Positions 22,611 to 33,439 of a stretch of 64,000 nucleotides of DNA are shown here, piece by piece. Made by a program: the position numbers and the translations under genes. How positions within the stretch are numbered: the first letter of the stretch is position 1; each line of letters starts with the position of its first letter. The DNA is taken from contig NZ_CP047946.1 of NCBI RefSeq assembly GCF_014279655.1, positions 2,542,001 through 2,606,000 of the forward strand. Reading direction: 5' to 3'. The notes under the pieces are model-generated. The model did no database searches and had not been told where the DNA came from. It was given only the letters and a program-made list of their open reading frames with translations. The DNA comes from Synechococcus sp. ROS8604. GTDB lineage: Bacteria; Cyanobacteriota; Cyanobacteriia; PCC-6307; Cyanobiaceae.

Positions 22611-24326
22611 TCAGAACTTGAAGGTGGTCTTCAGGAGGCCACCGAAGTTGTTGAAGGTGTCATCGTTGTTACGATTACCACCGAAGGCGCGGCCACGACC
22701 ATTAGTCAGATCGCCGTAAGGGCGGCTGAGGTAGTAGATCGCAGGAGTCACAGAGATGTTGTCGGTGACTTGGAACTGGTACCACCACTCCCAAGCGTAG
22801 TTGCCGTCAGCAACGAAATTGGACTTTTCGTCAAAGTCGTTGCGGTAGGAGACGTCAGTCACGAAGGATGGCTGACCAACGGCCATACCCAAGGTGTTGC
22901 CTTTCAAGAAGGCATCGGCCCACTGAAGACCCACGTACCAAGACTGCGTTGTTGCAGAACGGAACACAAACGTGTCGTCACCGTCGGTAAGGCTGTTGTA
23001 ACCGTAACCAGCACTGATTGAAGGGAACCAACCTGCTTCTTCAGGAGACCACCATGCACTCAGGCCAACAGAAGATGTATTACCAGCGTTGGTGAATGCA
23101 GCCGAAAGAGGTGTTCCGTTGAGCTGACCAACACTTGTGGAATTCTTGGAAGAATACGTGTAAGCAGCTGCTAAGCCCCAATTCTCGGGAGCGTAGGCGA
23201 TCTGAACAGTACCGTTGGAACCGGCACCATCAGTGGCGATACCACCCTCGTTGGGATCAGAGAATGAACCATTCGTGCTCACATAGTTGGCACTAATGCT
23301 GAAATCATTAGATTCCCAGCTCAAACCACCACCAGCACCCAGTGCAAGGTTGTAGGTAGAAGGAGCACCGGCGTAGGTGAAGAAGTCGAGAATCGTGTCA
23401 GCTGGATAAGCACTAGGCCATACAGCCAGCATGTCGTCCTGACGAACCACACCACCAACGGTTGCAGTGAAGCTGCTACCAACGGGGAACTGATACCAAA
23501 GGCGGTTCACGCCAACGCTGTTCGGACCAGAATTCTCTTGGAAAGCAACCTCAAGTGCGTCCAAGCCGACATAGCCATCTCCACCAAAAGCAGAGTTAGC
23601 GAAGTTGCCTGAGCGCAGAACGGTACGAAGCAAATCCTTGCCAGTGAAGCTGGTATCAAGGAACAACTTAAGGTCGTAATTGAAACTTGTACCTCCTGAT
23701 GAAGCTGCAGCAGCATCAGCACGCTTGGTACCAGCGCCGCCAGATCTCCAGCCTGATGAATCTATTCCATCTTGGAAGTTTCCATCGCGCACTGAAGCAT
23801 TGGTGCTAAAAACCGCATCCAGTACACCTTGCTTGGCGTCGCCACCGAAGCTGTTAGCACCGATCACGAAGGTGGCTACACCTTTCAGCTTGGTGGTGGT
23901 GGAGAACTGAGTGGCTTCCAGTTCGCCAACGCGGGCCTCAAGTCCGTCAACACGGCCCTTGAGGATGGCGAGTTCCTTTTCAAACTCTTTCATCAGGCGC
24001 TTGAGCTCGTCGGTCACTTCGGTGACGCGGTCGAGACAGGCGTTCAACAGAGCAGCCGCTTCAAAGCGGGTCATCGCCCTGTTACCGCGGTAGGTGCCGT
24101 TGGGATAACCAGCAACACAGCCGTAGCGCTCGATCAGGTTGCTGAGTGCCTGATAAGCCCAGTCGGTTGGGTAAACGTCAGAAAACTGAGTGATGCTGGT
24201 GACTTGCTCGCCAGTAGCGGCGTAGTCAGACACACCGTTGATGTTCAGCTCAGTGGCGTTAGCAGCCACAGGCGCCAGAAGGCCCAGGGCAGCTGGGGCC
24301 ACCAGCAGTTGATGGAAAAGTTTCAT
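22611..24326 (-). CDS. som: Som-type SLH/OprB outer-membrane porin, copy 1
   Basis: 571 residues. A signal peptide ends at ANAT (about residue 25). An SLH domain covers about 46-105 (FSDVYPTDWAYQALSNLIERYG, PNGTYRGNRAMTRFEAAALL). A coiled coil follows at 105-145 (VTDELKRLMKEFEKELAILKGRVDGLEARVGELE). The rest is a 16-strand-type OprB beta-barrel ending in KTTFKF, with the terminal Phe of outer-membrane proteins. The SLH part anchors it to the wall. Such cyanobacterial porins pass small solutes and some are linked to iron uptake. It is a close tandem paralogue of the next porin. Confidence 0.92.
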   Translation of the reverse strand: MKLFHQLLVAPAALGLLAPVAANATELNINGVSDYAATGEQVTSITQFSDVYPTDWAYQALSNLIERYGCVAGYPNGTYRGNRAMTRFEAAALLNACLDRVTEVTDELKRLMKEFEKELAILKGRVDGLEARVGELEATQFSTTTKLKGVATFVIGANSFGGDAKQGVLDAVFSTNASVRDGNFQDGIDSSGWRSGGAGTKRADAAAASSGGTSFNYDLKLFLDTSFTGKDLLRTVLRSGNFANSAFGGDGYVGLDALEVAFQENSGPNSVGVNRLWYQFPVGSSFTATVGGVVRQDDMLAVWPSAYPADTILDFFTYAGAPSTYNLALGAGGGLSWESNDFSISANYVSTNGSFSDPNEGGIATDGAGSNGTVQIAYAPENWGLAAAYTYSSKNSTSVGQLNGTPLSAAFTNAGNTSSVGLSAWWSPEEAGWFPSISAGYGYNSLTDGDDTFVFRSATTQSWYVGLQWADAFLKGNTLGMAVGQPSFVTDVSYRNDFDEKSNFVADGNYAWEWWYQFQVTDNISVTPAIYYLSRPYGDLTNGRGRAFGGNRNNDDTFNNFGGLLKTTFKF

Positions 24327-24373: not shown

Positions 24374-24697
24374 GTGTGTAATTTGATACCAAGTGATCCT
24401 GACGCCAATTCTTTGCGTACCAGATGAGGTAATGGCACACAGGCAAGAGCCCTTGACTTCATCAATCCATCAATGACTGCACTCTCCGCAGCCAGCCTGA
24501 AAAAAAAGACATCTTGCGAATGCCTAGACGCCAGCCTCATGGCATGACAGTTGCTCGATTGACCCACGAAAAAAGAGCTGCCCCCGCCCTCTCAAGATTG
24601 GACACCAACAGCGCCAAGGCACAACTTTTTCAAAGCGGAGCGGCAAGAACAAGAACCGGCGGTATGGGGCACACATGCCAACAATCAGCCAAACAAA
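24374..24697. other. Porin intergenic spacer
   Basis: 324 bases between the conserved UTR of porin 1 and the terminator of porin 2. I see no convincing gene. It must carry the promoter of porin 1, but no clear -35/-10 pair stands out. The repeat array found upstream of porin 2 is absent here. Confidence 0.5.
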
Positions 24698-24789: not shown

Positions 24790-26508
24790 TCAGAACTTGA
24801 AGGTGGTCTTAACAAGTCCACCAAAGTTGTTAAAGGTGTTGTTGTCATCCCCACGGTTGCCACCGAAGGCCTTGCCTTGACCATTCGTCAGATCGCCATA
24901 AGGGCGGCTGAGGTAGTAGATCGCAGGAGTCACAGAGATGTTGTCGGTGACTTGGAACTGGTACCACCACTCCCAGGCGTAGTTGCCGTCAGCAACGAAA
25001 TTGGACTTTTCGTCAAAGTCGTTGCGGTAGGAGACGTCAGTCACGAAGGTGGGCTGACCAACGGCCATACCCAAGGTGTTGCCCTTCATGAAGGCGTCGG
25101 CCCACTGGAGACCCACATACCAGGACTGCGTGGTTGCAGAACGGAAGACGAGCGTGTCGTTGCCGTCAGTGATGCTGTTGTAGCCCCAACCAGCACTAAT
25201 GCTGGGGAACCAGCCTGCTTCTTCTGGGGACCACCAGGCACTCAAACCAACGGAAGAATTGTTACCTGCGCCAGTGAAGGCGGTTGCAAGGGGAGTGCCG
25301 TTACCTCCGTAGAGCGTTCCAGCATTCAGAGAGGTGTAGTTGTAGGCAGCTGCTAGACCCCAATTCTCAGGTGCGTAAGCAATCTGAACGGTACCGTTGG
25401 AACCTGCGCCATCAGTGGCGATACCACCAGCGTTGGGATCGGAAAGAGCACCATTGGTGCTGACGTAGTTAGCACTGATGCTGAAGTCGTCAGACTGCCA
25501 CCACAAACCACCACCAGCGCCTAAGCCGAGGTTGTAGGTCGCAGGAGCACCTGCATAGGTGAAGAAGTCAAGAACGGTGTCGGCTGGATAAGCACTAGGC
25601 CAGACAGCCAACATGTCGTCTTGACGAACGACACCACCAACGGTTGCAGTGAAGCTGCTACCGATGGGGAATTGATACCAGAGACGGTTTACAGCAACGC
25701 TATTAGCACCTGAAGGCTCTTCGAAAGCGGTCTCCAAGCCGTCGAGGCCAACATATTCACCACCACCGAAGGCACTGCTACCGAAGTTACCGGCACGCAA
25801 CATCGTGCGGAACAAATCCTTACCAGTAAAGCTGGTATCCAGGAAGAGACGCAGGTCGTAGTTGAAACTTGTTGCGCCCGATGAGGCTGCAGCTGCACGT
25901 GCACGCTTGGTACCAGCGCCGCCAGATCTCCAGTCTGATGAAGAGATACCTCCAGAAAAGTCTCCGTCTTGGACGGAAGCATTAGTGCTAAATACCGCAT
26001 CCAATACACCTTGCTTGGCATCGCCACCGAAGCTGTTAGCACCGATCACGAAGGTGGCTTGACCCTTCAGTTTGGTGGTGGTGGAGAACTGAGTGGCTTC
26101 CAGTTCGCCAACGCGGGCTTCCAGTCCGTCAACACGGCCCTTGAGGATGGCGAGTTCCTTTTCGAACTCTTTCATCAGGCGCTTCAGCTCGTCGGTCACT
26201 TCGGTGACGCGGTCGAGACAGGCGTTCAGCAGAGCAGCCGCTTCAAAGCGGGTCATCGCCCTGTTACCGCGGTAGGTGCCGTTGGGGTAACCAGCAACAC
26301 AGCCGTAGCGCTCGATCAGGTTGCTGAGTGCCTGATAAGCCCAATCGGTTGGGTAAACGTCGGAAAACTGAGTGATGCTGGTGACTTGCTCGCCAGTGGC
26401 GGCGTAATCAGACACACCGTTGATATTGAGCTCAGTGGCATTCGCAGCCACAGGTGCCAGAAGGCCCAGGGCAGCTGGGGCCACCAGCATTTGATGGAAA
26501 AGTTTCAT
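24790..26508 (-). CDS. som: Som-type SLH/OprB outer-membrane porin, copy 2
   Basis: 572 residues with the same build as copy 1: signal peptide, SLH domain, coiled coil, OprB-type barrel, C-terminal KTTFKF. Residues 1-150 differ from copy 1 by a single substitution (Gln-Met for Gln-Leu at 6-7), and the C-terminal strands are also nearly identical. The middle loops differ, for example LYGGNGTPLATAF against GQLNGTPLSAAF. This pattern fits tandem duplication with later gene conversion of the ends and divergence of the surface loops. It has its own terminator and a distinct upstream region with a repeat array. Confidence 0.92.
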   Translation of the reverse strand: MKLFHQMLVAPAALGLLAPVAANATELNINGVSDYAATGEQVTSITQFSDVYPTDWAYQALSNLIERYGCVAGYPNGTYRGNRAMTRFEAAALLNACLDRVTEVTDELKRLMKEFEKELAILKGRVDGLEARVGELEATQFSTTTKLKGQATFVIGANSFGGDAKQGVLDAVFSTNASVQDGDFSGGISSSDWRSGGAGTKRARAAAASSGATSFNYDLRLFLDTSFTGKDLFRTMLRAGNFGSSAFGGGEYVGLDGLETAFEEPSGANSVAVNRLWYQFPIGSSFTATVGGVVRQDDMLAVWPSAYPADTVLDFFTYAGAPATYNLGLGAGGGLWWQSDDFSISANYVSTNGALSDPNAGGIATDGAGSNGTVQIAYAPENWGLAAAYNYTSLNAGTLYGGNGTPLATAFTGAGNNSSVGLSAWWSPEEAGWFPSISAGWGYNSITDGNDTLVFRSATTQSWYVGLQWADAFMKGNTLGMAVGQPTFVTDVSYRNDFDEKSNFVADGNYAWEWWYQFQVTDNISVTPAIYYLSRPYGDLTNGQGKAFGGNRGDDNNTFNNFGGLVKTTFKF

Positions 26509-26555
26509 TTTCGGTCCTCACACCAAAAAATTGAGGTATCGAGACGCTAAGCGTC
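26506..26555 (-). promoter_or_regulatory. Porin-2 5' UTR: SD-masking hairpin and candidate Yfr1 target
   Basis: Same structure as in porin 1. CCTCA (26532-26536 on the minus strand) pairs with TGAGG (26516-26520), which hides the Shine-Dalgarno. GTGTGAGGA (26515-26523) complements the Yfr1 core. A perfect GACGCT / AGCGTC stem lies at 26543-26555. The loop is an unpaired T-rich stretch. Confidence 0.7.
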
Positions 26556-26564
26556 AAAAAGAAA

Positions 26565-26572
26565 GATATTTA
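26565..26572 (-). promoter_or_regulatory. Candidate -10 region of porin 2
   Basis: The minus strand reads TAAATATC here, close to a sigma-70 -10 box, in an AT-rich stretch about 57 bases upstream of the start codon. No good -35 box is seen, which would suit an activator-dependent promoter. This is a weak call. Confidence 0.3.
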
Positions 26573-26619
26573 ATCAACCAATTAATTCGAGCCTTGATGT
26601 GCCAGAAAGTGCTATTGGA

Positions 26620-26762
26620 TGTATCCAATACGACAAAAAGCAGTCCGATTTGTATTGCAGGCAACAAAAAAAATTCCAAAATGTATTGCATGACACAAAA
26701 TGTCTGCGAAAAGTATCAAATTTAACAAAAACATCAAATTAAGTATCGCAAGCAACAAATCA
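26620..26762. repeat. Phased array of five ~20-nt imperfect direct repeats
   Basis: Five copies of a motif of the form GTAT(Y)(S)CA(N)G(M)AACAAA have their GTAT at 26621, 26652, 26683, 26713 and 26743, so the spacing is 31, 31, 30 and 30 bases. Copies 2 and 5 share GTATYGCARGCAACAAA. The spacing is close to three DNA turns, so all sites would face the same side of the helix. The array begins about 48 bases upstream of the candidate porin -10 and lies between the porin and a divergent DUF2079 gene. The region is AT-rich. No matching array is found before porin 1. Confidence 0.75.
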
Positions 26763-26815
26763 ATCGCCTGGGGAATCGCTCCATCAGCGGAAGTGAGACA
26801 GCATTTTTGGCAAGA

Positions 26816-26837: not shown

Positions 26838-26890
26838 GCATGGAGATGACCATCCACTATTGATAAGGAACTATCCCAAGGCCTTTGCGG

Positions 26891-28534
26891 ATGCCTGCAC
26901 CGCTCTCAAAGCCCACCAGGTCAGCTCTGGTTGCTGCGCTGATCTTTGCAGTTGCCGCAATCCTTCTGCAGGCTTGGCGCTCCCACGTGCTGCTCGCCAG
27001 TTACGACCAAGGCATTTTTCAGCAAGTGCTGTGGAACAGCCTGCGCGGGCACCCCTTTGAGAGCACACTCTCCTCACAGCTCTCTACCAATGTGATCCAC
27101 AGCGGTGAACCCGCAGGCTTGGGCTATGCGCGTTTAGGGCAGCATTTCACACCCTCCCTACTGCTTTGGGCACCTTTATTCGGGTTGATCGGAGGCGCCG
27201 CACTTCCGATTGTGCAAGTGGGGCTGATCGTCTTTGCAGGATTCGTCCTGCATCAACTCGCCCTTCAACTTGTTCCAGCAAGGACGGCGAACTGGCTTAC
27301 GTATGGGTTCTACGGAGGGAATGCACTCATCGGTCCCACCCTGGGAAATTTCACTGATCTCTGCCAGCTTCCCCTCGCTGTTTTTGCCCTGATGCTGGGT
27401 CTTCAGAGGCGAATGGGGTGGTTGATCCTGATCGCCGCTGCCCTGATCCCGCTCATTCGAGAAGACACGGGCATCATGCTGATTGCCATCGGATTGTGGT
27501 TGCTCTTACGAGAGCCAAAACGCTGGCCAATCGCGGTCGCCCTCATCATCTGGGGAGCGGGATGGATGGTGCTGGTCACCAATGCCTTGATGCCGCTCTT
27601 CTCGGACGACAACAGCAAGAGATTCATGGTAGAGAATTTTGGCCAATATCTGGATGGGGATCCGAGCGAAGGAGCCAGCAGCCTCTCGATGTTGCAACAG
27701 GCTTTGAGCCAGCCGCTGATCGTGCTCAGGGAACTGATCTCCCCGCCAGGTCAAACCTTTTTGTACCTGCTGGGTCATGGACTGCCATTTCTGATGGTGC
27801 CCCTGATCAGCCTCGATGCATGGATCCTTGCAGGCCCGTCACTCCTGGGCCTATTTCTGGCCCAAGGCAGCAATGACCCGCTCTCGATCACCATTCGCTA
27901 TACGCTTCTCGTGGTCCCCGGCTTCAGCCTCGGGGCCCTGCTCTGGTGGAGCCGTCGCCAGCTACCAACCCCCGGCCGCCGCACTCGCCTGGCGTGGGGA
28001 ATCGCCATCAGCCTTTCTCTCCTGCTCACCGTGAGCAGCAACCCCCATCGCAGCCTGTCGTGGATCGTGCCTGACAGCATCAAACCGATGGTTTTTAGCA
28101 ATCCCATTCAGCAATGGGAGCACGGACAAGATGCCCGCCAAGTTCTGGATCTGATCCCCCAAGACGCTTCTGTGAGCGCGAACACGCCTCTCATTCCGTT
28201 GATCGCTCGACGTGAGGTTGCGGTCCGTTATCCCGAATCGCTGCATTACCTCGACCGAAACAAAAACAAACTCTCGGTGGATTGGATTGCCGTCGATCTC
28301 GACTGGCTGGAGCGCTACAGCGTGGCGTTTAGAAGTGATTGGCGTGAGCTGAAACGCATCCAGCAGGAGCTGCCTGATCAGATGGACAAGTACCGGGTGC
28401 AAGCGTTCAAAAATGGCATCGCCGTTTTGCAACAGAACGGGCCTCACAAGCCTGAATTAGAGAGGCAGTTACGTGAACGGCTCGCAACGCCTTTGGCCCC
28501 TCACCCAAAACGGCCTCCCAACAAAAAGTCCTAA
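26891..28534 (+). CDS. DUF2079 membrane protein (type A, copy 1)
   Basis: 547 residues from ATG 26891; a TTG six bases earlier is in frame. About 10-12 transmembrane helices. The first loop holds the acidic ASYDQGIFQQVLWNSLRGHPFESTLSS segment and the helix region holds HLREDTG-like LIPLIREDTGIML. DUF2079 proteins have the look of GT-C glycosyltransferases, with an Asp in the first luminal loop. Function and acceptor are unproven. It resembles the protein at 31636-33261 and starts a block of five such genes. Confidence 0.85.
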   Translation: MPAPLSKPTRSALVAALIFAVAAILLQAWRSHVLLASYDQGIFQQVLWNSLRGHPFESTLSSQLSTNVIHSGEPAGLGYARLGQHFTPSLLLWAPLFGLIGGAALPIVQVGLIVFAGFVLHQLALQLVPARTANWLTYGFYGGNALIGPTLGNFTDLCQLPLAVFALMLGLQRRMGWLILIAAALIPLIREDTGIMLIAIGLWLLLREPKRWPIAVALIIWGAGWMVLVTNALMPLFSDDNSKRFMVENFGQYLDGDPSEGASSLSMLQQALSQPLIVLRELISPPGQTFLYLLGHGLPFLMVPLISLDAWILAGPSLLGLFLAQGSNDPLSITIRYTLLVVPGFSLGALLWWSRRQLPTPGRRTRLAWGIAISLSLLLTVSSNPHRSLSWIVPDSIKPMVFSNPIQQWEHGQDARQVLDLIPQDASVSANTPLIPLIARREVAVRYPESLHYLDRNKNKLSVDWIAVDLDWLERYSVAFRSDWRELKRIQQELPDQMDKYRVQAFKNGIAVLQQNGPHKPELERQLRERLATPLAPHPKRPPNKKS

Positions 28535-28713: not shown

Positions 28714-30330
28714 ATGCATTCGATCTCATTCATGGACCCGAAGGTTGAGGATGAGACCACATCACTGCGATCTAGTCCCTTGCAAGATAACGGACGCTGG
28801 CGGCTTGTGACAGTGCCATTGCCTCTTTTGCTCTGGTTGCTCACCCTGCTGGTTTGGCTCCCTTGGATGGGGAATCTGCCGTTGCGCGATTGGGATGAAG
28901 CTCTCGTCGCAGGAGTCTCCCGCTCCACCACAGCACAACCGGCTTGGGACTGGCTTTTAGCCATTAAAAACAGTGAGGCGATTTACCTCAACAAACCACC
29001 AGGACTGCACTGGCTCATTGGGGCCTCGATCCAGCGATTTGGGGAAGATGAATGGGCCGTACGGCTGATGCCAAGTCTGCTCTCCAGCTTGGCCGTACCA
29101 CTCATCGTGATCCTGCGTCGCCAACTGAGCCATGGACAAGGCGCTGAGCGCTCCGCCCTTTGTTCTGGTTTGATCCTGATGACCCTGTTGCCCATGGCTC
29201 GCCATGGCCGGCTCGCGATGCTGGACGGAACTCTTGTGAGTTGCAGCCTGCTCCTGATCAGCGGTTGGCTCAGCAGCAAGCGCTGGCCTTGGCGTGGCTT
29301 GCTTGCCGGATTGGGGGGAAGCGGCATCTTGCTCCTGAAACCACCGGCCCTAATTGGCTACTTGGCCATGATCGGGATCATCACTCTGCTCGATAGGCCC
29401 TCCAGCAGAAAATGTTCAGCCTTGGGCTGGGCGATGAGCGGCCTGATCCCTGGAGCCATCTGGCACCTTTGGCACCTTGGGCAGCGCGGCAGCGATGCAC
29501 TCGTGATGTGGGGCGGCCAGGGATTTGGTCGCGTGACCGAAGTCGTCGGCGAAAACAGTGGGGCCTGGGTGATGCCACTCACAGAGATTCTTGAAGGCGG
29601 GTGGCCCTGGATCCTGCTCCTACCCAGCGGCGTGGTCTGGGCATGGCGCCATCGCAAAACATCAACGGGCCGATGGGAACTCGGTCTCCTGGTCGGCAGC
29701 GCGCTGATGGTGTTGCCCTTGCGGACCCAGTTGCCTTGGTACAGCCACCTGCTCTGGCCACCCATCGCCCTTCTATGTGGAGAAGCCCTGGCTGAACTCT
29801 TGAAGGAGGGGCGTCCCCATTGGATCCCAAAAGCATGGCAATGGATGGGAGCTCTCCTCCTGGTAAGCACAACGGTTCTTGTGGCGATGAAGGCCAGGGC
29901 GGCGCTTCCCTTCCCAGCCTTGTTTGCCGCAGGCCTTGGCTTGCTCATCGGCGGAGTGATGCTCTCCAAACCCCCGCAACGTCAACGCCAACAGGGACTC
30001 GCCGTGCTGATCACGGGGTGGAGCCTTGGCCTGCTTGCCCTTTGGCACAGTCATCTATGGCTATGGGAGCTCAATGAAATCTGGGATCCAAGGCCTGTAG
30101 CAGCACAAATTCGATCGCTCCCACCTGATGCGGTTGTGATGCTGGATGGATCCACGCGCCCCTCACTCAACTGGTACGCAAAGCGTCCTTTAAAGGAATT
30201 GAAGTCCAAGACTCCAGCGGAGTTTTGGCTCGTGAGCAAGCGCTCCCGCCAAAGCTGTTCGAGCACGACCAATCCACCACACGCTGATGATTGGGCGCTC
30301 TGGCACTGCTCTTCCACCGACCAGCCATGA
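28714..30330 (+). CDS. GT39/ArnT-like membrane glycosyltransferase
   Basis: 538 residues from ATG 28714; ATG 28732 is equally possible. The GT39 signature is clear: LPLRDWDEALVAGVSR in the first loop, with the catalytic Asp-Glu pair, then KPPGLHWLIGASIQRFGEDEWAVRLMPSLL. About 11 transmembrane helices follow and a short C-terminal soluble end. It should transfer a sugar from a polyprenyl-phosphate donor on the periplasmic face. The target is unknown. Its stop overlaps the next ATG (30327-30330), which suggests translation with the type B DUF2079 protein. Confidence 0.87.
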   Translation: MHSISFMDPKVEDETTSLRSSPLQDNGRWRLVTVPLPLLLWLLTLLVWLPWMGNLPLRDWDEALVAGVSRSTTAQPAWDWLLAIKNSEAIYLNKPPGLHWLIGASIQRFGEDEWAVRLMPSLLSSLAVPLIVILRRQLSHGQGAERSALCSGLILMTLLPMARHGRLAMLDGTLVSCSLLLISGWLSSKRWPWRGLLAGLGGSGILLLKPPALIGYLAMIGIITLLDRPSSRKCSALGWAMSGLIPGAIWHLWHLGQRGSDALVMWGGQGFGRVTEVVGENSGAWVMPLTEILEGGWPWILLLPSGVVWAWRHRKTSTGRWELGLLVGSALMVLPLRTQLPWYSHLLWPPIALLCGEALAELLKEGRPHWIPKAWQWMGALLLVSTTVLVAMKARAALPFPALFAAGLGLLIGGVMLSKPPQRQRQQGLAVLITGWSLGLLALWHSHLWLWELNEIWDPRPVAAQIRSLPPDAVVMLDGSTRPSLNWYAKRPLKELKSKTPAEFWLVSKRSRQSCSSTTNPPHADDWALWHCSSTDQP

Positions 30331-31766
30331 ACAGCACGCCACCCGCACGCCTCTGGTGGACATCCTTTGGCATTGGAGTCCTTGGTTGGGGCTTAGCGGC
30401 TTCTCGCCATTGGCTGCTTCAGAGCAATGCCTATGACCTTGGGCTCTTTGATCAATGGGCCTGGTTGCTCGGCAATGGGTTACCACCTGTTTCCTCAATG
30501 GAGGATGTTCATGTGCTGGCTGATCACGGCGCCTGGATGTTCTATGGGTCCGGCTTGCTGTATTGGTTTCAACCATCCGTTCATTGGCTGCTCGCAAGCC
30601 AAGCGCTGGCCCTCAGTCTTACCGCAATCCCTGTTTGGATCTTGGGAACTCAAGCAGGTCTATCCAGACGACTCTGCTGGTTCAGCTGCCTGTTGTGGTG
30701 GCTGCAACCATTGGTTTTCAACGTCAATTTGTTTGATTTCCACCCTGAAACCTGGGTGATGCCAGCGCTCGCCTTGGCGATTTGGTGCCAACGCCAGCAG
30801 CGCTTTGGTGGGTGGCTTTTGCTTCTGGTCTTGATGTTGGGATGCCGCGATGGCCTCGTTCTGATCACGCTTGGGCTCAGCCTCAGTTTGCTAATCCAAC
30901 GGCGCTGGCGTTGGGCCATCGCGGGCGCAGGACTCTCCGGCGCCTGGGTTCTGCTGCTGAGCCAGTGGCTGTATCCCTTGTTCAGGGGTGGAGAAGGGCC
31001 AAAAGCCGCCGGTCGAATGTTTTCTCATCTCGGTAACAACTTTGGCGACATTCTGTTCATATTGATGAGCCGACCATGGCTTGCATTCACACACATCGAC
31101 TTCGGCGACGGTGCCTTCTACCTCCTGGTCTTAATCCTTCCCACTCTGCCTTTCTGGAGACGTCGGTCGCTCGTGATCTTGAGCGCCGCAGTCCCACTTT
31201 TGCTCGTCAACCTGAACGCAGAGGCATCGTCCTATCGAACGCTGATTCACCACTACAGCCTTCCTCTTGCCGTCCTCAGCGTGACAGCCGCAATCGACGG
31301 ATTAGCCCTAAGGCCAAGACAAACTTTTCCTTGGAAAGGTGTGATTTGGGCAGTCACTCTCTGGATCGCGCTAGCCAAACCCTGGTTTTTCACTGGCCCC
31401 TATCTCAACAGAGTAAATGTGATTGGTGATGCACAACAAGCCATCTCCAAACTCACACCACAGGATCGCGTTCTAACAACCAGTTACTTCGTACCCCAGA
31501 TTAGTCAAAGGCAGCACGTTGCCTTCGCCAAAAAATCGCAAAGCAAGCAAGCCTTTCGCAATGGCTGGACAGTGTTCTTACTTAATCCAAACGATCCAGG
31601 CTGGGGGTCTAAAAAAAGACTCCAGGCTGATTTGCTCAGTCAGGCAAAAGACAAGAATTGGACTTGTCAAAGCTGGGATTCTGGTCTTGAACTTTGCCGG
31701 AAACCCGACGCAAAATCAACGCTCCTCCCTCACAAAAAACCGGTTCATAGCGTCCCTCAGCCGTAA
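30327..31766 (+). CDS. DUF2079 membrane protein (type B, copy 1)
   Basis: 479 residues from ATG 30327. About 10 transmembrane helices. The first loop has SNAYDLGLFDQWAWLLGNG and the second DVHVLADHGAWMFY, followed by NLFDFHPETWVMPALALAI, which are the acidic and His-containing motifs of DUF2079. It is closer to the protein at 33440-34873 than to the type A pair. The last 22 or so residues, after ELCRKPDAK, are encoded antisense to the end of the convergent type A gene. Confidence 0.85.
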   Translation: MNSTPPARLWWTSFGIGVLGWGLAASRHWLLQSNAYDLGLFDQWAWLLGNGLPPVSSMEDVHVLADHGAWMFYGSGLLYWFQPSVHWLLASQALALSLTAIPVWILGTQAGLSRRLCWFSCLLWWLQPLVFNVNLFDFHPETWVMPALALAIWCQRQQRFGGWLLLLVLMLGCRDGLVLITLGLSLSLLIQRRWRWAIAGAGLSGAWVLLLSQWLYPLFRGGEGPKAAGRMFSHLGNNFGDILFILMSRPWLAFTHIDFGDGAFYLLVLILPTLPFWRRRSLVILSAAVPLLLVNLNAEASSYRTLIHHYSLPLAVLSVTAAIDGLALRPRQTFPWKGVIWAVTLWIALAKPWFFTGPYLNRVNVIGDAQQAISKLTPQDRVLTTSYFVPQISQRQHVAFAKKSQSKQAFRNGWTVFLLNPNDPGWGSKKRLQADLLSQAKDKNWTCQSWDSGLELCRKPDAKSTLLPHKKPVHSVPQP

Positions 31767-33261
31767 GTCTTTCCACAGCATGCAAAATGCCTCTTTGCTG
31801 TTCGGTTTCTCGCTTAAATAAGGGCACAAGAGGTGAGTAATAGCCAGGAAAAGCGGCGATCCAATCCACCTCCTGAATTTGGTCCTCTCGATCGAGGTAG
31901 CGCACACCATGAGGGAAGCGAATGGCTACCTCACGCTGAGCCAGCCATGGGAGCAGAGGAGTATCTGCACTAACTGAAGCTGTCGGCGGAATCAAGGAGA
32001 GGGCTTTGCGCCCCACGGCACGTCGCTTCACCATCGCCGAGGGAGACACATGAACCCATGGTGAAAAACTGTCTGGCACTAAGGCCGAAAAGGTTCGGTG
32101 CGGATTACTCACAATCGTAAGCAACAGCCCCATACTCAACGCAGCAGTCCAACAGGGTCGCAACCAACGCTTCTTCCAAATTGACGGGTTGGATTGCCAC
32201 CACAGCAACGTACCGATGTACAGGCCTGGAACAAGAGCCAACACGTAGCGAAGCGTCACAGCCAGAGCAGTACGACCCTGCGATAACAAAGCAATCAGCA
32301 ATGGTGCACTCACAATCAACGCCGCATCAACTGAGAACAGAGGCACCAGTAAGAGCGGCAGAGAAAGTGCAATTAGAAAGCCCAGGGTGGCCCCTGGCGG
32401 ACTGACCAAGGCTTGCAAAAGGGCTACTGGCTTTTGCAGCATTTGGAACAACACTGACCAAGTTCCGCCAGAGACATCCTCAACCAGATGCCCAAATTTT
32501 TCTTGGAGAAAACGATCAGATAAGGAAGCATCGACAGAAGGCTGAATCAACCCCGTCACAAGAAAGACCCAGGCAGATGAGATCAGCATCAACCCAATAC
32601 CTATTCCACGCACATCAGACCTACGAACAGCGGCCCAAACACCAATCGAAAAGAGCAATAAACCACTGTCTTCTCTCACCAACAACAAGGAAAAAGACGA
32701 GACAATGACCAGTCGCAAGCGGCGATCGAGCAATCCCCCCAGGATCAAAAATCCAAGCAGGGGGTACCAAATCAGGTCATGAAAGTTCTCCAACATCGGG
32801 CCAAATACAGCCCCACTCAAGAAGTAACTCAACACGAGACGCCAAGCCAACTCCTCAGGCAACCGCGATTGAGCGATACGCCACAGGACTAACCCGGCCG
32901 CTGTTAATGCTGTGACTTGTGCAAAAGGAAGAACAACCCAACCGAAAGCAGCGACCGCTGGAGCCAAAAGCAGCGTCAATGCATTGGCGTGCTGACCCAA
33001 ATGGAGATAGGAAACTTTCGGCAGATCGCCATTCACCGCAACAGCAGATGACAGAACGGATGACAAACTGCTTTCGAAAGGGCGGCCTTGCGCAGTCGAC
33101 CACAACTCCTGAAGGAATAAGGCTTGGTCGTAGGTAGACCCGAAACTTTCCAGCCGCCAAATCTGAAGGAAGAAACCAATCAGCCAAAATCCAGCCGCTA
33201 AACATAAAACAGCAGGTGGCCAATATCTGGTGAGCCGATTCCAGATCTTGAACGACGCCAT
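31636..33261 (-). CDS. DUF2079 membrane protein (type A, copy 2)
   Basis: 541 residues from ATG 33261; a TTG at 33282 is in frame. It shares with 26891-28534 the segment STYDQALFLQELWSTAQGRPFESSLSS, the YLHLGQHANALTLLLAP stretch and SFSLLLVREDSGLLL. About 11 membrane helices. Its final ~22 residues lie in a 131-base overlap with the convergent type B gene and look like run-on sequence beyond the family domain. A surface-glycan role is inferred only. Confidence 0.83.
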   Translation of the reverse strand: MASFKIWNRLTRYWPPAVLCLAAGFWLIGFFLQIWRLESFGSTYDQALFLQELWSTAQGRPFESSLSSVLSSAVAVNGDLPKVSYLHLGQHANALTLLLAPAVAAFGWVVLPFAQVTALTAAGLVLWRIAQSRLPEELAWRLVLSYFLSGAVFGPMLENFHDLIWYPLLGFLILGGLLDRRLRLVIVSSFSLLLVREDSGLLLFSIGVWAAVRRSDVRGIGIGLMLISSAWVFLVTGLIQPSVDASLSDRFLQEKFGHLVEDVSGGTWSVLFQMLQKPVALLQALVSPPGATLGFLIALSLPLLLVPLFSVDAALIVSAPLLIALLSQGRTALAVTLRYVLALVPGLYIGTLLWWQSNPSIWKKRWLRPCWTAALSMGLLLTIVSNPHRTFSALVPDSFSPWVHVSPSAMVKRRAVGRKALSLIPPTASVSADTPLLPWLAQREVAIRFPHGVRYLDREDQIQEVDWIAAFPGYYSPLVPLFKRETEQQRGILHAVERLTAEGRYEPVFCEGGALILRRVSGKVQDQNPSFDKSNSCLLPD

Positions 33262-33439
33262 CGGATCGGTTCTTTTTTCCAAAACGCCCCTATTAAAAGA
33301 CAGCAGCCCGAAGGCCCGAAACTATCGCAACTTCATCCCCTTGCCCTATGTACGCAAACGGAGAGTCAACAGAGCATCAAAGCTTCCGCAATCCATACAA
33401 ACAGGGTTAAAAGGCTACAGCAACTTCAATCAAAACCAA

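Follow-up and report, generated by a model that had tools for sequence, protein, structure and literature searches.

Predicted CRP-family sites, probably for NtcA, form a five-box array spaced at about three helical turns upstream of a som-type porin gene in Synechococcus sp. ROS8604

Tandem CRP sites near whole-turn spacing are a feature of enterobacterial class III promoters, and the NtcA sites in the promoters of glnA, amt1 and ntcA are established; a literature search for tandem CRP sites remained without result. The NtcA site has the form GTAN8TAC with the core GT-N10-AC, and the genes under NtcA control in cyanobacteria include urtA, glnA and nirA (PMC3898017, PMC9430850). Two reports concern porins directly: an NtcA ChIP region lies at the OprB-type porin gene all7614 of Anabaena (PMC3898017), and the porins of Prochlorococcus MED4 are targets of Yfr1 (PMC6778093).

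The locus described here lies in a window of 64,000 nucleotides of the Synechococcus sp. ROS8604 genome, which encodes two porins in tandem on the minus strand. The first occupies 22611-24326; the second, a som-type porin and the inferred target of the array (24790..26508; NF033921, 288.8 bits), combines an SLH domain (PF00395) with an OprB domain (PF04966). Between the latter and a divergent DUF2079 gene on the plus strand (26891..28534, with a start at 26885 or 26891; PF09852, 441.7 bits) sits an array of five short repeats. Their GTAT cores begin at 26621, 26652, 26683, 26713 and 26743, i.e. at intervals of 31, 31, 30 and 30 bp, and ACA follows at the identical offset in all five, so that each copy reads GTAT-N8-ACA. 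Counted away from the porin, these are box 1 (GTATCCAATACGAC, 26621..26634), whose location is matched in other porin promoters, box 2 (GTATTGCAGGCAAC, 26652..26665, 31 bp from box 1), box 3 (GTATTGCATGACAC, 26683..26696), box 4 (GTATCAAATTTAAC, 26713..26726) and box 5 (GTATCGCAAGCAAC, 26743..26756). The coordinates and the 30-31 base period given in the initial annotation are correct, and the array is far beyond chance: GTA-N9-ACA occurs five times in 26600-26780, against a mean of 0.04 and a maximum of 2 in dinucleotide shuffles (n=5000). Pairs of GTAT-N8-ACA placed 27-33 bp apart are found at a single site in the organism's own genome, namely the array, and in five of the 31 genus genomes, always at the same type of locus; the reversed-pattern control yields none in these 31 genomes.

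The spacers are mutually dissimilar, the box portion alone being common to the copies, and TRF did not report the array as a tandem repeat. As the copies differ outside the boxes and the whole period is not alike, a plain tandem duplication or VNTR was rejected. According to the initial annotation, the period would put a bound protein on one face of the helix. With 10.5 bp per turn, adjacent boxes indeed deviate from three turns by just 0.5-1.5 bp, but the intervals total 122 bp, or 11.6 turns, which leaves the outermost boxes about 4 bp (~135 degrees) out of register. Thus, the geometry is that of a slow spiral, and placement on one face is roughly true at most.

In form, the boxes follow the consensus TGTATC-N6-NACAAAA, drawn from 23 copies in five genomes that were selected by their GTA; in the right half-site A is present in 23/23 and C in 21/23. 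This fits both the CRP/FNR frame TGT-N10-ACA and the NtcA core GT-N10-AC, the latter being present in 5/5 array copies. The full GTAN8TAC palindrome is present in none of the five: the GTA half is intact throughout, and the right halves are GAC, AAC, CAC, AAC and AAC. One half-site thus keeps NAC alone, which counts against the NtcA reading. Within the genus, the sites at glnA, amt1 and ntcA depart from the full palindrome likewise, with the same asymmetry seen in GTATCAACGCGCAC at glnA (backwards), GTAGCAACAGCCAC at amt1 and GTAGCAAGGAACAC at ntcA (backwards). A strictly symmetric alternative, TGTATCN4GATACA, was tried and discarded, since it occurs in two genomes only.

A matrix built solely from the upstream regions of glnA, amt1 and ntcA (20 genomes each) places boxes 1 to 5 at ranks 100, 77, 6, 55 and 39 among the 127,962 positions of the 64-kb window, to which all matrix ranks refer, the genomes having been examined by pattern searches. 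In its symmetrised version the ranks are 13, 23, 3, 34 and 35 of 63,981, and the five boxes are the sole positions of the array region in the top 0.2%. At a threshold of at least 3.8 bits, the region holds five boxes compared to 0.42 in shuffles, 0/2000 of which reach five, and 0/1000 column-permuted matrices match the result. The signal weakens and nevertheless persists both with the 14-base core alone (ranks 15-448 of 63,987) and when one training gene is left out. A related string, TGTATC-N7-ACAAA, occurs upstream of nirA in G023 and G026. Hence the statement of the initial annotation that no named motif fits no longer holds: the boxes match sites of the NtcA/CRP family as represented by the genus-trained matrix.

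Both the proximity of the repeats to orthologous porins and their period, proposed earlier as a check, are retained in relatives with diverged spacers. The array is kept in G019 (GTAT spacing 30/31/30/29), G026 (31/31/29/30), G005 (30/59/30) and G020 (30/87), and partly in G030 (three boxes at 30 bp steps); in G005 and G026 the contig stops just short of the porin, whose presence is inferred from the shared sequence beside box 1. Although the sequence between the boxes has diverged in the first four, the spacing has been kept, such that close relatives show three to five boxes at steps of 29-31 bp, or multiples thereof where a box has decayed. More distant members (G010, G025, G027, G017, G016, G011, G024, G001) have two boxes exactly 31 bp apart, the proximal one 106-118 bp above the porin ATG, and across the genus the most conserved form is that with a second box 31 bp above box 1. 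Across all genus porin upstream regions without arrays, 12 pairs at 30-31 bp were observed, while random placement predicts 0.8 and gave no more than 5 in any of 5000 trials; these genomes are related, and the pairs are a case of conservation, not of independent evidence. Elsewhere there are two boxes at other distances (25 bp in G021 and G004, 35 bp in G023) or a single one (G007, G013, G018, G012, G008). Matches of query positions 246-289 in G017, G027 and G028 fell on the start of an apparent other coding sequence and were discounted as fortuitous. The draft contigs G005:C13 and G026:C60 start or end inside porin leaders, and near-identical porin 5' ends probably break the assemblies there.

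Downstream of the array, the best -10 candidate of the second porin is TAAATATC (26565..26572, minus strand), G019 and G020 having a comparable AT-rich element; the distance of ~48 bp between it and the start of the array, as annotated earlier, is right. No convincing -35/-10 pair was found for this gene. GGCACA (26598..26603, minus strand), which follows box 1 at a distance of 17 bp in the porin sense, may be a -35 element or the site of a second factor, and in aligned upstream regions many porin promoters of the genus show G(G/T)CACA at this distance below the proximal box. A canonical class II NtcA promoter has its site centered near -41.5 and TAN3T 22-23 bp downstream of it; no TAN3T is present at that distance below box 1, and the layout here is thus a different one. 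In G010, G025, G006, G028 and G018, GGTTAA-N5-GGTAAT-like repeats follow in 11-bp steps.

Taken together, the five repeats are most likely dimer sites for a CRP-family regulator, NtcA before all others, lying about three turns apart and controlling the second som-type porin; we assign this sequence-based reading a probability of roughly 0.68. With 2-oxoglutarate bound, NtcA would sit on several neighboring boxes at once, possibly cooperatively, and might bend the DNA at nearly constant phase. It could then aid RNA polymerase from a distance of the class I or class III kind, and porin transcription would follow nitrogen status.

Activation is plausibly the more likely outcome than repression, as judged solely from box position. 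Nevertheless, the boxes might bind NtcA while the array represses the porin or titrates the regulator, a reading we deem unlikely and yet the most serious of the alternatives. NtcA represses as well as activates (PMC3898017), and the first porin supplies a possible case: the initial annotation had noted the absence of the repeats upstream of that gene, which is right for the array as such, but one box of the same kind, GTATCAAATTACAC (24376-24389, minus strand; rank 5/127,962), lies 56 bp above its ATG, a position from which repression is easy. This single box is conserved at the first porins of G030 and G020. Against repression or titration at the second porin, the only good -10 candidate stands downstream of box 1, which gives that box an activator-like position, and one porin of Prochlorococcus SS120 goes up 1.42-fold under azaserine (PMC5451487), a weak hint in the same direction.

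The leader of the second porin likely adds a second layer of control. At its ribosome-binding site lies GTGTGAGG (26516..26523, minus strand), which is near-invariant in porin leaders and which we take to be complementary to the Yfr1 core, making it a likely Yfr1 pairing site. A short hairpin precedes it (26506-26555 for the hairpin and GTGTGAGG together, minus strand), and most leaders of som-type porins in the genus have the same arrangement. The stem varies compensatorily among genes (GACGC/GCGTC, GGCGC/GCGCC, GAGGC/GCCTC, GGACA/TGTCC). A search of the window for known RNA elements returned one tRNA only.

The identity of the regulator is the subject of the next reading, which we consider somewhat less probable still: the binder would be another CRP-family protein, namely PtrA or the CRP-like pair of an iron locus, and the array would report phosphate or iron instead of nitrogen. 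The genome encodes NtcA (TIGR03697, 378 bits) and also these other members of the family. PtrA and one of the iron-locus proteins share most of the NtcA recognition helix (STRVT), ptrA and the iron-locus genes each adjoin other porin genes, and the Prochlorococcus porin PMM0709 is phosphate-induced according to a citation in PMC5451487. However, ptrA does not accompany the array wherever it occurs, as membership of a PtrA regulon would imply, being absent above cut-off from the array genomes G019, G020 and G026, and the iron-locus pair is missing from the two-box genomes G010, G025 and G027. Either as the sole binder is thus disfavored, and NtcA is favored because, of the CRP-family regulators, it alone was found in array genomes as well as in two-box genomes. 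As to these other loci themselves, ptrA, a PhoB-like response regulator and a porin occur together at G000:C1:1622000-1627000 (L300), the porin there being preceded by Pho-box-like TTAACTT..CTTAACC repeats and one GTAATCAGGGATAC box. At G000:C1:1599500-1603500 (L301), an apparent iron locus, two small CRP-like regulators flank a gene judged ferritin-like by eye, which adjoins a further porin.

The distribution of the pair pattern outside the genus also speaks against these other regulators. In 300 family genomes it yields 38 matches versus 13 for the reversed pattern, and some single matches must accordingly be chance. The extra-genus matches concentrate in the genus g79, at urtA and at a porin beside the urease alpha gene (ureC), and one further genome (G101) has the pattern at urtA. 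The urease-side porin of g79 is preceded by two perfect GTAN8TAC boxes ~31-32 bp apart. No other evidence from outside the genus supports NtcA as the predicted regulator as strongly as this clustering at a porin and at urtA, which is a classic NtcA target. Single GTAN8TAC-type boxes also stand at ~112 bp before porins of Vulcanococcus and other Synechococcaceae. In five g79 loci (L316, L319, L322, L324, L325) the porin adjoining the urease alpha gene is a short one of the MKLFQRLLVAPAALGL type.

That the period stems from phased A-tracts which curve the DNA, or from an UP-like element, with the GTATC parts being incidental, is improbable. Runs of 3-8 A residues do follow most copies at 30-31 bp, each box then ending in ACAAAA, but GTATC and AC are kept along with the A-run across five genomes, and an A-run is short or absent in the two-box species, whose boxes nevertheless stand 31 bp apart. 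Least credible of all is that the array serves the DUF2079 gene, as the initial annotation had considered on account of the common spacer: in G026, G020 and G030 no such gene adjoins the array, nor does one adjoin several of the two-box promoters, while the distance from the porin ATG up to the first GTAT is 109-113 bp in G000, G019 and G020. As arrays persist without DUF2079, the second porin is the likely target. Near the DUF2079 gene, the window also contains large membrane-protein ORFs (30291-31766, 31636-33282), one of which resembles DUF2079 by eye.

Porins of the som type are a main nutrient gate into marine picocyanobacteria, and the switching of their genes is little understood. Through the array, one of two tandem porin genes has a control region that is absent from the other. 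If the NtcA reading is true, an array responsive to nitrogen status would couple outer-membrane permeability to the carbon/nitrogen balance. More tentatively, we propose that a picocyanobacterial porin is directly under NtcA via a helically spaced array which ranges from one to five boxes within the genus, and that the steepness with which the permeability of the outer membrane responds to 2-oxoglutarate may be set by the number of boxes. The one-to-five-box series in relatives constitutes a natural set for the dose response of tandem CRP-family sites.

Compared to the known systems, the putative Yfr1 site is of the same GTGTGAGG type as in the leaders of Prochlorococcus PMM1119 and PMM1121 (PMC6778093); that control acts after transcription, and the array would be a separate layer. 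The Anabaena all7614 region resembles the locus in that NtcA is bound near a porin gene, the NtcA site of the array being a predicted one, but it belongs to another organism, with a single GTAN8TAC-like site listed and no array reported (PMC3898017). In the titles and abstracts of the literature searched, neither a phased five-box array before a porin nor its two-box form was found. With enterobacterial class III promoters the array shares the presence of several CRP-family sites above a single promoter, spaced at close to whole turns; it differs in having more sites and a different effector. The NtcA promoters of glnA, amt1 and ntcA of the genus are alike in the GTATC-N6-NAC form and AT-rich flanks, whereas the array has five boxes at 30-31 bp with none at the class II place, a weaker second half-site, and a porin as its target. 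While NtcA boxes as such are well known, the phased five-box porin array and its genus-wide two-box form are without a counterpart in the papers searched.
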